Shown one piece after another: positions 56,443 to 62,424 of a stretch of DNA of 64,000 bases. A program made the position numbers and the translations under genes. Each line of letters opens with the position of its first letter. Positions within the stretch are counted from its first letter, which is position 1. Origin of the DNA: Bowmanella denitrificans (GTDB taxonomy: Bacteria > Pseudomonadota > Gammaproteobacteria > Enterobacterales > Alteromonadaceae); assembly GCF_002887595.1 (NCBI RefSeq), contig NZ_PEBU01000002.1, positions 434,001-498,000 of the forward strand. Reading direction: 5' to 3'. The notes under the pieces were generated by a model. The model saw only the letters and a list, made by a program, of their open reading frames with translations. It was not told where the DNA came from and made no database searches.

Positions 56443-56916
56443 TCAATTTTTACCGCAGCATTGCTTAAACTTTTTATTACTACCGCAAAAACAGCTGTCA
56501 TTCCGACCTAACCTGAGTTTGCCACAGTCATCTAACATCTGCCCATCCACATAACGCCAATGACCTTCTTCAATAATAAAGCGGGATAGCTCATGTAGTT
56601 TATACAATTGGCCATCGTAACGATAAAAGGCACTAAATTGTACGGTGGCCCCTGGCTCGGTTAGCTGATGAGACTCTACCTGCAATGCCAGCCATTGTGT
56701 TTCATTGGCATCTTGTTGCAACACTGCCAAAGACAAGTCCCGGCGTTTAGCCTGACTATAAGTGTTCAAAATATATTGGAAATCACCCAATACATAGGCG
56801 CAATAACGTGAACGCATCAAGGCTTCGGCGGTTGGGGCCAAAAGCTTACCTTTAAGCAGTGGCTCACAGCAGCGTGCGAAGGCAAGTTTACTATCGCAAT
56901 AACAAAGTGTTGTCAT
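56443..56916 (-). CDS. ychJ: YchJ-family SEC-C motif protein
   Basis: 157 residues from the ATG at 56916, where MTTLCYCDSKLAFARCCEPLL aligns with the start of enteric YchJ; the frame is open to 56955 without support. An N-terminal Cys-rich motif, APTAEALMRSRYCAYVLGDFQYI (the conserved MRSRY block), and a C-terminal zinc-binding SEC-C motif RNDSCFCGSNKKFKQCCGK are present. The family is uncharacterised, perhaps translation- or protein-quality-related. It lies 32 bases after the SulA-like gene and may share its SOS control. Confidence 0.92.
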   Translation of the reverse strand: MTTLCYCDSKLAFARCCEPLLKGKLLAPTAEALMRSRYCAYVLGDFQYILNTYSQAKRRDLSLAVLQQDANETQWLALQVESHQLTEPGATVQFSAFYRYDGQLYKLHELSRFIIEEGHWRYVDGQMLDDCGKLRLGRNDSCFCGSNKKFKQCCGKN

Positions 56917-56948
56917 GGAAAAAGTCGAGATCGGCAGCAGTAAGCCCA

Positions 56949-57332
56949 TTACCATGGCCCAAAGACAAGATTGTTGTCCAGGCCTTTTTCTTTACTTAAG
57001 CTTACCACTGTAACGCCAAACTGACGACAGAGCTGTTCCAGGCGCTTACGGTTTAATTCATCCAGTACTAACTCTTCTACAAACAGTGCGCAGGTTTTTC
57101 CGGCACTCATCAGCTTTTCCAGCCATTCCAGAGTCTGTTCTGCTTCAGGACGAGGTAACTGCTGGCTATGGTGTTCTGTCCGCTTAAATCGCAGGTTGTT
57201 GGCCAGCAAATAAATCCATTTATTCTGTTGCGTAAAGTGTTGCATCAGGCTGCGAAGTTGCGACCCCTGGTAAATGGACAATTCCATTAAGCCTGGTTGG
57301 TGGCGAGACGGAAGCAATGCGTTAACGGCCAT
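56949..57332 (-). CDS. sulA: SulA-like SOS cell-division inhibitor
   Basis: 127 residues from the ATG at 57332 (AACAAGG upstream). The pattern PGLMELSIYQGSQLRSLMQHFTQQNKWIYLLANNLRF, then a C-terminal RecA-like half TLEWLEKLMSAGKTCALFVEELVLDELNRKRLEQLCRQFGVTVV, resembles the SulA fold that blocks FtsZ polymerisation. Two LexA-like boxes lie directly upstream. It is somewhat shorter than enteric SulA (169). Degradation by Lon would need a C-terminal His-containing tail, which is not obvious here. Confidence 0.82.
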   Translation of the reverse strand: MAVNALLPSRHQPGLMELSIYQGSQLRSLMQHFTQQNKWIYLLANNLRFKRTEHHSQQLPRPEAEQTLEWLEKLMSAGKTCALFVEELVLDELNRKRLEQLCRQFGVTVVSLSKEKGLDNNLVFGPW

Positions 57333-57339
57333 AACAAAA

Positions 57340-57395
57340 CCTTGTTTATTTATACAGTAGTTATGCAAACAGTAGTACTGTATAAATAAACATGC
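57340..57395. promoter_or_regulatory. paired LexA (SOS) boxes forming an inverted repeat
   Basis: GTTTATTTATACAGTA (57344–57359) and TACTGTATAAATAAAC (57376–57391) are exact reverse complements. Each reads as CTGT-N8-ACAN, one base short of the LexA consensus. The first box is 12–27 bases upstream of the SulA-like start, the second 44–59 bases. Confidence 0.82.
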
Positions 57396-57498: not shown

Positions 57499-58677
57499 CT
57501 AGCGCAACAGGTTTGCCGCTATCATGGCCTGAATCTGTTCGGGTTGCAGACCAAACTCTATAAGCACGTCACGGCTGTGTTGGCCTAAGCCAGGTGCGGA
57601 GCTAAAAGGCGGGGGGAGATGGGCACTCATTTTAATCACTTGCCCTAAATGAACATGTTGCTTGTGATCGGCCGAAGTATCTTTTTTTAGTGCGCCTCTG
57701 GCCATGACTTGCGGGTCTTCCAATGCTTGTTGCAGACTGTTTACCGCGCTAAGACAATATTCCTGTTGGTCAAACTCCTGAAGCCAGGCACTTCTGCTTC
57801 GGCTTAAAAATAACGTTTCCAGCGCTTTACATTGATCCTGGTAGTTAACTAGCTCAGCGATAAAGCCGTGCCCGGTCTTATGCAAAAAAGCCTGAAAGTA
57901 GCGTTGCTCACCTGCGCCAAAGTACAGGAAGTTGCCACAGGCACAGGCATAGATACGGTTTCTTGGCCAATTACCCTGTAAAAATGCCTGTCCTTGTCTG
58001 GGTAACGTGGTATCTAGCAACTCACCAGCACTTGGCGCTTGCATGGCCATTAAGGCATCCAGTACAGCTACATCAACCAATTGCCCTTGTTGACTTTGTT
58101 GCCTGTGATACAGCGCAGCCAAGATGCCACTAAGTGCGGTATAACCGCCAACCAATGATAGTCCGGGTGCCAGTGAGGGTCGGTTGTTTTCTGTACTAAA
58201 GCTGTCCAGCAGACCGCTGAGTGCGCCAATATTGCCTTCATGTTGCATCTGGCTGGCACGCGGTCCCGTCAGGCCATATCCGGATATGTGACAATAGATA
58301 AGCCGTGGATTGATTTTGTGTAAGTCGGCATAGCCCAGCCCCCACGAGTCCATGCGGCCAGGCTTAAATCCTTCAATCAATACATCGGCCTGTTTAAGCA
58401 TGTCTAACAAAGCACTTTTGCCTAATCCTTTGCGAAAATTCATAGCCAGCGAGCGTTTATTATTGTTGATGGCCTGGAATGCGGCATTGACCTTCTCACC
58501 CTGTTCTTCGGTCTGACCAAATGGGGGCATAAACCTGAACATATCGCCGCCTTTAATCGGCTCTATCTTAATCACGTTGGCGCCAAGGCTTGCCAGTAGA
58601 GCACCGCAAAAAGGCCCGCTGCCCATAAAGGCCAGTTCAATAACCAGTATGTCCTTAAGTATCGGGAATTTTTGCAT
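57499..58677 (-). CDS. family III CoA-transferase / AMACR-like enzyme
   Basis: 392 residues with the CaiB/BaiF family layout: LKDILVIELAFMGSGPFCGALLASLGANVIKIEPIKGGD at the start, NNNKRSLAMNFRKG, FKPGRMDSWGLGYADLHKINPRLIYCHISGYGLTGP near 105–140, and QHEGNIGALSGLL at 145–157. It either moves CoA between acids or racemises 2-methylacyl-CoA. At the position where racemases have GHD and many transferases have the catalytic Asp, this protein has H146-E147. It is one base after the ThDP-enzyme gene. Confidence 0.88.
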   Translation of the reverse strand: MQKFPILKDILVIELAFMGSGPFCGALLASLGANVIKIEPIKGGDMFRFMPPFGQTEEQGEKVNAAFQAINNNKRSLAMNFRKGLGKSALLDMLKQADVLIEGFKPGRMDSWGLGYADLHKINPRLIYCHISGYGLTGPRASQMQHEGNIGALSGLLDSFSTENNRPSLAPGLSLVGGYTALSGILAALYHRQQSQQGQLVDVAVLDALMAMQAPSAGELLDTTLPRQGQAFLQGNWPRNRIYACACGNFLYFGAGEQRYFQAFLHKTGHGFIAELVNYQDQCKALETLFLSRSRSAWLQEFDQQEYCLSAVNSLQQALEDPQVMARGALKKDTSADHKQHVHLGQVIKMSAHLPPPFSSAPGLGQHSRDVLIEFGLQPEQIQAMIAANLLR

Positions 58678-58678
58678 G

Positions 58679-61090
58679 TCAGTAATACCAATCGGTGCTG
58701 AAGTGGCGATACATATCTCCTTGATTATTATGCGCTGTCATAACCTGAATAATATTGATGCTATTTTTGCTTGTGAGCCATTCATGCATTTGCTCCGGGT
58801 CGAACTCTATGATGCTGTGCTGGGTGATCTTTACACCAGCATGGTAAAAAACAGCCGGTGACTGATAAAGGCTCAGGCTATTCATTTGTTCACCGGCATG
58901 ACCCAACAAGGCTCGTTCCTGATAAGTACGCACCATGGACAGGCTGTTATTGACGAAGATAAACAATGTGGCACTGCCGCGTACGGTGGATTTGACGCCA
59001 CGTAGGTTTTTAAGTAGAAAAGGCAATATATCCGGTGCCAGATTACGGGCTCCATCGCCAACAAAGGCCACTGTGTTGCCTGGATTTTTCAGTGCCACTA
59101 AAGGAAAGGCCATAAGCGCATCCCCCATGCAACCTCGGCCATAGATGCTGGAAAAACCTGGGCCGGTGCGAGGCAGGCTACCCAGAGCGCTAAATCCGCA
59201 CCGCCCAGCATCAAATAACCCGGTGTAGCGGTATGCCTGTTTTTGGATCAGGGCTTTGAGCAATTCGCTGAAGCGGTAGAAAAAATAATCCGGACTCATT
59301 GGACAGCTTGGCAATTGACTTAACAATCCCGCCGACAGTGATTTGGCCCTGGCAATTTGTGTTTGGCGGTATGCCAGTACTTGAGGATCGACGGCTAACT
59401 TTGCTTTTATCTGCAGTAGAAAATCAACCAGCTTCATACACAGCCCCTGGCTGGCATGGGGAGCGATATGCGCGGCATTTTCTGTAACTTGTATGGTTTC
59501 GAGCCGGTGTTTGAAATTACCAGGTGGAAATGGGCTGGAAGGTTGCCCAAGTCGGCTTTTTAAAAAAAAGATAACCTGATCTTGTTTCGGGTTAAGCTCG
59601 CCGTCCTGGTAAAGATAACTCAGTAGTTCCCGACTGGTACCATATACTCCAAGCGTCCCCAGATATTGTGCATTGTAGTTACCCTCAGGATAGGCACTCA
59701 CACAGCCTGGGCGTTGTACCGAATCTGCCAGTGCGATTCCTGCTTGCCTGGCAATATCCATCAGCAGGGTACGCTCCTGCGCCGACAACGGGCTGTCTAC
59801 TACCCAAAGGAGTTTGCGACTGTGTTGGTTTAACAGCGCCATAATATTATCCGGTAGTGACGGTATGGCTTGTGAAGCGGATTTTTTAACCGGTATGGGC
59901 GCAATGACTGCACTGGGTAATGAACGGCAGCTATCCAATACTCTGGGCGTCGCTAATAGCACCACCGGGCCTTGATCTCTGTCATACAGGTTTTGGGCCT
60001 CAATCAGGTCATGCTCCATCTGTTGTGGATCACACATATACACCCAGGCTATAGCCATGCCATCAAGAATGCGGCGGATATCTTCCTCAGCATTCATCAT
60101 GCCCTGTGCGGCAAACCAGTGGTTCGGTTCACCTTCGCCACAGACGATAAAGCCTCTGGCGCGACTGCGTTTGAGGTTGAGCAGCGTCCCTTTGAACTCC
60201 AGCATCATGCCGCAGGTGACAGTGAGCAGAAATGGTGACCGATATAACTGCCAGTTGGCCAGTGCACTGCAAGCCAGACTGTGCTCATTACAACCATTGA
60301 TGATTGTGATCTGGCGCTGCGCCAATCCCTGCTCTAAGGCATCAATGAACGGTGCAATGACCGACCCTGTGTAATAGCCAAATAGCCAGTTATCATCCGC
60401 ACGCGCCGTGAAAAATTCCAGCATAAAGGTGGCAAGACTGATAAACCGCCTGCCGTACTCTGTAACGCCCTGAATACGGCCGGCATGTGGTAGCGAACGT
60501 AGTTTTCTTGCCAGTAGCGGATTGCAGTAATAACGCAGCAGAAACTCCATGGTGTCCACTATGGATTGGCTGGCGATGATGGCCTGCCAATGGCTTTGTT
60601 GTTTGTGCACATAGTGTTCGACACTATTGGCAAGGCTAAACACTAAGCCATGGCTTGGTGGTGAGGTGAAGTAAACCAAAGATAATGGACTGCGAAGTCC
60701 GCTAATTTTGCGCTTTGACAGAGCTGAGTAAAAACTGTCGAGACGTTCCTGTAATTGCTGTGCCGATATGCCAAGCTGATTGTCATAGAACAGCAGATCC
60801 AGTGAATCTTGTTGCTGCTCAGTGAGTTGATGACAGAGTTGTTCAAGACTGTCAGCCACATACAGGCTGACATTAAACGTCTTTTCCAGTCGCCCTATCT
60901 GGTTGACGGCTTTGTTAAGCAATTGCTGATGCAGTGGCAACACAGAAACCGGACTGAGAGGTATCGCCGATTCATTGCGAATACGCAGGGTGGTTACCGA
61001 CAAAGGTTGAAAAAGCTGCTGTATTCCAAAAACAATTGCAGAGGTTAACGCAGGGTCTTTGCTGACGATACCGATCCCTGGACAATACAT
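58679..61090 (-). CDS. unusual ThDP-dependent enzyme with extra N-terminal domain
   Basis: 803 residues from the ATG at 61090 (AAAGGGAT about eight bases upstream); a TTG at 61144 that overlaps the dgt stop is the alternative. The ThDP-enzyme PYR domain holds the activating Glu in INGCNEHSLACSALANW near residue 267. The PP domain holds VAFVGDGARNLAPDIL with NNSLSM about 30 residues later (GDG–NN motif, near 676–710), preceded by FSSIYGRGCMGDALMAFPLVAL. Residues 1–220 form an extra domain I do not recognise. It could be a decarboxylase or carboligase of the PigD/oxalyl-CoA-decarboxylase type. Pairing with a CoA-transferase suggests an acyl-CoA or acid substrate; this is inference. Confidence 0.8.
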   Translation of the reverse strand: MYCPGIGIVSKDPALTSAIVFGIQQLFQPLSVTTLRIRNESAIPLSPVSVLPLHQQLLNKAVNQIGRLEKTFNVSLYVADSLEQLCHQLTEQQQDSLDLLFYDNQLGISAQQLQERLDSFYSALSKRKISGLRSPLSLVYFTSPPSHGLVFSLANSVEHYVHKQQSHWQAIIASQSIVDTMEFLLRYYCNPLLARKLRSLPHAGRIQGVTEYGRRFISLATFMLEFFTARADDNWLFGYYTGSVIAPFIDALEQGLAQRQITIINGCNEHSLACSALANWQLYRSPFLLTVTCGMMLEFKGTLLNLKRSRARGFIVCGEGEPNHWFAAQGMMNAEEDIRRILDGMAIAWVYMCDPQQMEHDLIEAQNLYDRDQGPVVLLATPRVLDSCRSLPSAVIAPIPVKKSASQAIPSLPDNIMALLNQHSRKLLWVVDSPLSAQERTLLMDIARQAGIALADSVQRPGCVSAYPEGNYNAQYLGTLGVYGTSRELLSYLYQDGELNPKQDQVIFFLKSRLGQPSSPFPPGNFKHRLETIQVTENAAHIAPHASQGLCMKLVDFLLQIKAKLAVDPQVLAYRQTQIARAKSLSAGLLSQLPSCPMSPDYFFYRFSELLKALIQKQAYRYTGLFDAGRCGFSALGSLPRTGPGFSSIYGRGCMGDALMAFPLVALKNPGNTVAFVGDGARNLAPDILPFLLKNLRGVKSTVRGSATLFIFVNNSLSMVRTYQERALLGHAGEQMNSLSLYQSPAVFYHAGVKITQHSIIEFDPEQMHEWLTSKNSINIIQVMTAHNNQGDMYRHFSTDWYY

Positions 61091-61140: not shown

Positions 61141-62424
61141 TCAAGTCTGAATATTGCGTGGAAGGAATAGTTGTCCATACAGTCTGGAAGCAAATTCGTC
61201 CGTCATCCCTGAGATATAATCAGCGATAACCCGTTGTTCCTGCCCCTGAGCCTGTCCTTTCAGCCAGCGCTGCTTGGTGTTTTCCGGTAACAAACGCATA
61301 GGGTCGGAACTGAATGCTTCAAATAAGGCCATCACCAGTTGCTGGCCTTTAAACTCCATACGCTGTACGTCGCTTTGACGAATGACCCATCGGTATACAT
61401 AAGCTTTAAATTCGTCCAGGGCCTGACTAAAGCCTGATGGAAGCTGGGCGTTATTGGCGAGCAGAGGGTGTTTGAATTGGTTATCCGTAGTGCCAATTTC
61501 AACGGCAGTAATAAAGGCGTTAACCAGAGCACCAATGGCGTCTTTACGATCATAGTGGGCCTGGCTGAACAATTTGATCGCAAGGTGCTGTATGTTCTGG
61601 CTAAGCCAGACAATGTCGAGTTGGCTGATGGGGTTGGCGACTTCTTCAATAAAACTATCCTGACTGACAATACCTGTCACTATGGCATCTTCCAGATCGT
61701 GAATGCTGTAAGCAATGTCGTCGGCAAGCTCCATAATAGAGCAATCAAAGGACTTAAAACGGGTTTTGGCAAGCTGCGCATTGTGTGGGGCAAAGCTACA
61801 AAATAGCGCTTTGTCTTCGGCTTCCAATGGTGACAGCAACCAGTCAAATACGTCTTTGTCGTCATCAAACAAACCTTTAGCCGGTTGCCAATCCTGTAAA
61901 CGCTCTGTTGTCGGACGGGTGATTAATAACTGACTTTGATAGTTCGGGTATTTCACCAGGCCCAACAAAGTTCGGCGGCATAAGTTCATACCTGCGTCGG
62001 GTGTATAGGGCTCAAGCTTGGTGACAATGCGAAAAGTCTGCCCATTGCCTTCAAAACCCCCATGCTTGCGCATCATATAGTTCAGTGCCATTTCGCCCCC
62101 GTGGCCGAAGGGCGGGTGACCTATATCATGGGCCAGACAGAGTGTTTCGATCAGATTATCGTTAAGGTCCAACGCATGACTTTGCTGTGGGTACTTCTGC
62201 CGCAGTTGGGATGCAATGCCATGGCCAATTTGTGCGGCCTCCAGCGAATGTGTTAAGCGGGTGCGATGAAAATCATTCACACCCACGCCAAGTACCTGCG
62301 TTTTGGCCTGCAAACGGCGAAAAGCGGCAGAGTGCAACACCCGGGCTTTATCGCGCTGGAAGGCTGAGCGGTGGTCCCCCTGTCGTTCGGGTTGCATCTG
62401 CTGTCTTGCAAGCCAGGGGGACAT
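61141..62424 (-). CDS. dgt: dGTPase-like HD-domain dNTP triphosphohydrolase
   Basis: 427 residues with AGGAG six bases before the ATG. The HD metal set is clear: [17 protein letters not shown] (first His), [18 protein letters not shown] (HD with extra His) and [21 protein letters not shown] (Asp). It hydrolyses dNTPs to deoxynucleoside and triphosphate. The length fits the shorter Dgt-like class rather than the 505-residue enteric enzyme. It starts three bases after the YfbR stop. Confidence 0.92.

Follow-up and report, generated by a model that had tools for sequence, protein, structure and literature searches.

A 64,000-nucleotide stretch of the genome of the marine bacterium Bowmanella denitrificans (contig NZ_PEBU01000002.1, positions 434,001 to 498,000; hereafter the window, whose numbering is used throughout) carries two adjoining minus-strand genes, encoding a large thiamine diphosphate (ThDP)-dependent enzyme and a family III coenzyme A (CoA) transferase. 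The original prediction, drawn from the sequence alone, had placed the two one base apart, and this is what we find: a single base lies between the stop codon of the ThDP gene (TGA, 58681–58679) and the ATG of the CoA-transferase gene (58677). The observation is real and is mostly explained, the ThDP enzyme being a PigD-like carboligase and the new element being its two-gene arrangement with an odd CoA-transferase. The open reading frame (ORF) of the ThDP enzyme is stop-free over 58679–61090. A TTG at 61144 is an alternative start on paper; we take the ATG at 61090 as the start because the proteins of both Bowmanella relatives begin there (MYQPGIGI) and AAAGGGA lies just 5′ of it. Conservation was counted over an alignment of the window protein with those of 51 of 75 named loci, near-copies and fragments having been dropped. 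The features are as follows.

58679..61090, minus strand: PigD-like ThDP-dependent carboligase, 803 residues, ATG at 61090
60452..61090, minus strand: N-terminal domain, about residues 1–213, predicted receiver/flavodoxin-like alpha/beta fold (residues 1–198 modelled alone)
60284..60286, minus strand: codon of Glu269 in the PYR domain, putatively activating ThDP; invariant in 52/52 aligned sequences and aligned with the Glu of the host acetohydroxyacid synthase (AHAS)
58946..59059, minus strand: ThDP/Mg-binding motif of the PP domain, GDG 678–680 to NN 714–715, from sequence alignment
57499..58677, minus strand: family III CoA-transferase, 392 residues (PF02515, E 6.7e-82), with His146-Glu147 where Asp is usual and Gly178 in the place of the racemase Asp156

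The PYR and PP motifs were indeed clear, the catalytic Glu expected near residue 267 being E269. The GDG was likewise invariant in all 52 sequences, N714 was kept in at least 90%, and mapping onto the host's own AHAS showed Glu269, GDG, Asn and the AHAS Gln to be preserved. Residues 214–803 make up a core of the usual AHAS/pyruvate-oxidase type that retains the catalytic residues, and the solved folds closest to it are AHAS, glyoxylate carboligase and JanthE. The whole protein gave no Pfam match and no phmmer match in the PDB, both at E ≤ 1. Its N-terminal region, which had been singled out as unfamiliar, matched no Pfam family at E ≤ 0.1, and no Pfam family was found in more than two of the 52 family members in this region. 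The unfamiliarity thus stood but the distinctiveness did not: this is a PigD-family domain, with the receiver/flavodoxin-like fold given by structure prediction, and it does not set the ThDP protein apart because the family shares it.

A suggested likeness to PigD, the prodigiosin enzyme that attaches an acetyl unit to unsaturated acyl chains, was borne out by the PigD model NF053552, which aligned with residues 32–792 (E 2e-195). This is nearly an end-to-end match to a characterised enzyme, which counts in part against the original prediction, but at 651.5 bits it falls below the equivalog cut-off of 950 bits. As a distant relative, the protein shares 29–36% identity with 48 other PigDs, and 31% with a Leptospirales PigD. 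With its N-terminal, PYR, central and PP domains and its Glu and GDG...N residues, the protein belongs to the broad PigD-like family; PMC12247030 lists 'PigD-like proteins' among the subclasses of ThDP decarboxylases.

A two-gene cassette in Bowmanella

The ThDP gene was present in 3 of 98 genomes of relatives, all of the genus Bowmanella, of which five genomes were searched; the other two carriers are B. pacifica (L014) and B. yangjiangensis (L064). Among 398 genomes sampled across the phylum three matched the PigD model, none above cut-off, and among 394 from the order four did, one of them weakly. Wherever the gene occurred in Bowmanella (3/3), the CoA-transferase adjoined it, as the predicted coupling would have it. 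All three genomes carry the pair at one position, flanked by a putative dGTPase-like gene and a small, putatively SulA-like one; in the other two Bowmanella the SulA-like gene follows the dGTPase-like gene after 205 and 118 bases, leaving an empty site. The SulA-like gene (56949–57368), which comes after the cassette, had no Pfam match, and its label comes from reading the sequence; no exact CTGTN8ACAG box lay near it, the sole match in the window (20850) being at chance level.

Amino-acid identity of the pair between the window and the other two Bowmanella was 59–66%. Four flanking genes were 76–93% identical, but a fifth (56443–56955) was only 60–63%, so the divergence of the pair is not unique. 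G+C was similar, at 0.49 for the pair and 0.51 for the window. In both genes the non-synonymous rate (dN) was 0.13–0.35 against a proportion of synonymous differences (pS) of 0.67–0.82 (the synonymous rate, dS, was saturated or 1.7–2.2), which argues for purifying selection and, by this substitution pattern, for a two-gene cassette that is kept by selection.

We surveyed 79 loci (the window, three plasmid records and 75 named contigs; blastp at 1e-8); L010–L013, the same contigs as L064, L014, L049 and L058, were dropped from counts where both exist. A CoA-transferase III gene lay on the same strand within 60 bases of PigD at four loci: the three Bowmanella and L039, a Leptospirales metagenome-assembled genome in which PigD is followed by the CoA-transferase (4-base overlap) and then an SDR gene. 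Such a match lay farther off in 31 of the 79 loci (in 22 of these 4.5–6.1 kb downstream) and was lacking from 44, including all 27 prodigiosin clusters; these counts are lower bounds because the flanks were unequal in length.

No prodigiosin cluster was found at the Bowmanella locus, and the genome-wide search, which covered PigE and PigC, returned partial matches only. The ten PigE matches were all aminotransferases and fell within residues 387–745 of 849, the aminotransferase half, and the reductase half was not found; PigC was not matched end to end, the best being an 840-residue frame covering residues 20–302 and 791–875. Homology to PigD and a sporadic distribution (3/398 phylum genomes) would fit a decayed remnant of a prodigiosin cluster. 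Against this stand intact genes with low dN in three species, a deep branch of their own outside the prodigiosin PigDs (though its placement is open) and a CoA-transferase match in none of the 27 prodigiosin clusters, and we regard decay as extremely unlikely.

A CoA-transferase with Glu in place of Asp

The partner is a clear member of its family (276 bits against a Pfam gathering threshold of 23.3 for PF02515), and its top sequence matches in the PDB were the mycobacterial racemase MCR, followed by CaiB/BaiF and YfdE proteins. In the alignment with MCR, His126 corresponds to His146, Asp127 to Glu147 and Asp156 to Gly178; in the other three paired CoA-transferases the Asp156 position is Ala. 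The His126/Asp156 pair of AMACR-type enzymes is therefore incomplete, with the His kept. Catalysis by MCR is ascribed to His126/Glu241 and Asp156 in PMC12246613, so a racemase role is unlikely for a protein with Gly or Ala at that position.

His-Glu was found in all four distinct PigD-adjacent CoA-transferases. In contrast, 31 of 32 other distinct homologues from the fetched loci carried Asp (25 in register and 6 shifted by gaps of the pairwise alignment), the remaining one being a fragment without the site, and the host's single CoA-transferase paralogue also has Asp (GYDFMVQA). In a comparison with 4ed9 (GYDF), Glu147 aligned with the family III Asp, which we take to be the catalytic one. 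This contrast, together with the Gly or Ala at the MCR Asp156 position, raises the prospect that the partner is a CoA-transferase homologue without a transferase role, acting as an isomerase, as a hydrolase-like enzyme or as a scaffold that binds acyl-CoA for the PigD-like enzyme. We think this doubtful: PMC9813914 gives Asp as the nucleophile of family III CoA-transferases (through anhydride and aspartyl-CoA) but Glu as that of family I, and Glu may do the same job here.

The pairing had also been likened to the Frc/Oxc couple of oxalate metabolism. As a family assignment this failed on both sides, the ThDP protein giving no NCBIfam match to Oxc at E ≤ 1 and the CoA-transferase scoring 141.3 bits against the Frc cut-off of 504.2. 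As the ThDP protein is also far closer to PigD and has an additional N-terminal domain, and the CoA-transferase lacks the family III Asp, an oxalate-type couple of acyl-CoA decarboxylase and CoA-transferase is very improbable.

Proposed chemistry

In published work on prodigiosin, a 3-acetyloctanoyl thioester restored pigment formation in a pigD mutant whereas the free acid did not (Couturier et al. 2021, PMC8341465). According to the same paper, PigD acts preferentially at the beta position of unsaturated ketones and thioesters; the paper also places a thioester as the intermediate after PigD and shows that lysate containing PigE converts it to the next intermediate. Because the published substrate of PigD is thus an alpha,beta-unsaturated thioester, we read the Bowmanella pair, by analogy and with a probability of roughly one half, as a PigD-type (Stetter) carboligase with a CoA-thioester partner that would supply the acceptor or recycle CoA. 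Carboligation, one of the reactions put forward in the original prediction, is accordingly the chemistry that we favour.

The enzyme would bind and activate ThDP through Glu269 and the GDG...N site, and would decarboxylate a 2-oxo acid, most likely pyruvate, to an acyl-anion equivalent, as suggested by PigD and by the AHAS/pyruvate-oxidase-like core, whose predicted fold is that of pyruvate-using carboligases. Following the PigD reaction, the acyl anion would add to the beta carbon of an alpha,beta-unsaturated acyl-CoA to give a 3-acetyl-acyl (4-oxo) thioester. From the gene order and the missing PigE we infer the part of the partner: it may convert a free enoic acid to the enoyl-CoA or, as in the Frc/Oxc couple, may take CoA off the 4-oxoacyl product and pass it on to a new enoic acid. 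The product would leave as a free keto acid that is not reduced by PigE. Donor, acceptor and direction of CoA transfer are to be read in this conditional sense, beside an observed family, catalytic residues, cassette and low dN and a predicted fold. The keto acid is probably a different one from that of the prodigiosin route, because the pair stands without a pigment pathway and in a cassette with an unusual CoA-transferase. More tentatively, the two genes could form a self-contained 'Stetter cycle', in which a Glu-based family III CoA-transferase recycles CoA and frees branched 4-oxo acids with neither a reductase nor a ligase. We know of no description of such a two-gene Stetter route in the part of the literature that we searched.

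Several observations weigh against this Stetter-type reading. Direct adjacency is confined to 4 of the 79 loci. In a tree of 73 PigDs (L035, L036, L053, L056, L077 and L085 were left out as cut at a contig end, split or fragmentary), the three Bowmanella proteins formed one clade (Shimodaira–Hasegawa-like approximate likelihood ratio support 100) on a stem of 1.85 whose joining point is open, and the Leptospirales protein grouped not with them but with the prodigiosin PigDs (support 98), on a branch of 1.35 that was flagged as long. Because the two group apart, the pairing may have two independent origins, which would favour a functional link, or one of the two cases may be due to chance. The cassette lacks a gene for the synthesis of an enoic acid or enoyl-CoA, and its CoA-transferase has Glu147 where the Frc-type family III mechanism has its catalytic Asp. 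On the published side, purified PigE was inactive, the evidence coming from cells and lysate, and whether the thioester is one of CoA or of acyl carrier protein was left open (PMC8341465).

The ThDP protein has itself diverged. At 18 positions where at least 90% of the 48 others have one and the same residue, the three Bowmanella proteins agree on a different one; the Leptospirales protein follows the majority at 17 of these. Among the changes (common residue first) are D297L, F328A, W649I, L654C and G715N. Residue 328 adjoins the Gln aligned with AHAS, in which the Phe at this position presumably lines the active site, and the exchange of Phe for Ala and of Trp for Ile suggests a larger pocket. 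So many clade-specific changes at conserved positions suggest a substrate different from that of PigD. Compared with the other PigDs that we examined, the acceptor side is probably altered, for example at Phe328 and Trp649, and the substrate is therefore probably not the 2-octenoyl thioester. Given the long stem and the 18 departures, the reaction itself could have changed.

These altered residues would also suit a carboligase of the 1,2-type (benzoin/acetolactate) acting on an aldehyde, 2-oxo acid or ketone, with the CoA-transferase working on a separate acid or a later product. The nearest solved folds (AHAS, glyoxylate carboligase and JanthE) speak for such an enzyme, and PigD attacks the carbonyl carbon of 2-octenal (related in PMC8341465). 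We consider this unlikely, as PigD, the closest characterised relative, uses a thioester Michael acceptor, and the CoA-transferase is a constant partner in the Bowmanella genomes with the gene.

Comparison with known systems

The CoA-transferase resembles AMACR and MCR in its equivalent of His126 and departs from them in the change of Asp127 to Glu and of Asp156 to Gly or Ala. With the Frc/Oxc couple the pair has in common a ThDP enzyme beside a family III CoA-transferase, and possibly a catalytic-CoA logic, but it fails the curated family models for both proteins.

Clusters with PigD and PigE in Pseudomonas, Brenneria, Pectobacterium, Xenorhabdus and others also use the PigD family, and 29 of the 73 tree rows combine PigE with a CoA-transferase III match. 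They differ in that PigE is present and the CoA-transferase match mostly lies within an ORF of about 550–720 residues, with the usual Asp and kilobases away. One such cluster (L012:12690-16565) encodes a ThiF-rhodanese protein, a ThiS-like carrier and a 646-residue protein with a C-terminal CoA-transferase III domain, and another (L051:1129-7011) a JAB protease and an AMP-ligase (Pfam); other PigD-PigE loci have similar gene orders, and these clusters look like a sulfur-transfer natural-product pathway using a PigD/PigE step. In Photobacterium lipolyticum and Microbulbifer halophilus (L022, L076), a prodigiosin-type PigD adjoins PigE, with no other pig match in the fetched stretch. Jiangella species (L047, L052, L088) have an acyl-CoA dehydrogenase-like gene just downstream of PigD (Pfam check on L047) and no PigE match, and may represent a further PigD pathway that does without PigE. 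In Serratia rubidaea NCTC12971 (L077) the prodigiosin cluster is broken into many ORFs, through decay or assembly error.

SeAAS and HapD are PigD homologues with Stetter activity, and this enzyme class is not limited to prodigiosin makers; the likeness of the Bowmanella protein to these two is one of enzyme class, apart from any sequence comparison. Natural Stetter enzymes that make 1,4-dicarbonyls are few and of limited substrate scope, according to PMC11533139. The cassette adds a PigD-type enzyme outside prodigiosin biosynthesis that is altered at otherwise conserved sites and has a CoA partner, in keeping with the revised thioester view of PigD; with its two proteins, it is a simple system for testing both this view and whether a family III CoA-transferase can be Glu-based. 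The closest parallel is PigD itself, the ThDP-dependent Stetter enzyme of the MAP (2-methyl-3-amylpyrrole) branch of prodigiosin biosynthesis, with which the Bowmanella enzyme shares its domain order (including the N-terminal domain), a near full-length alignment and the catalytic residues, but from which it differs in having a CoA-transferase partner where no PigE or pig cluster was found.
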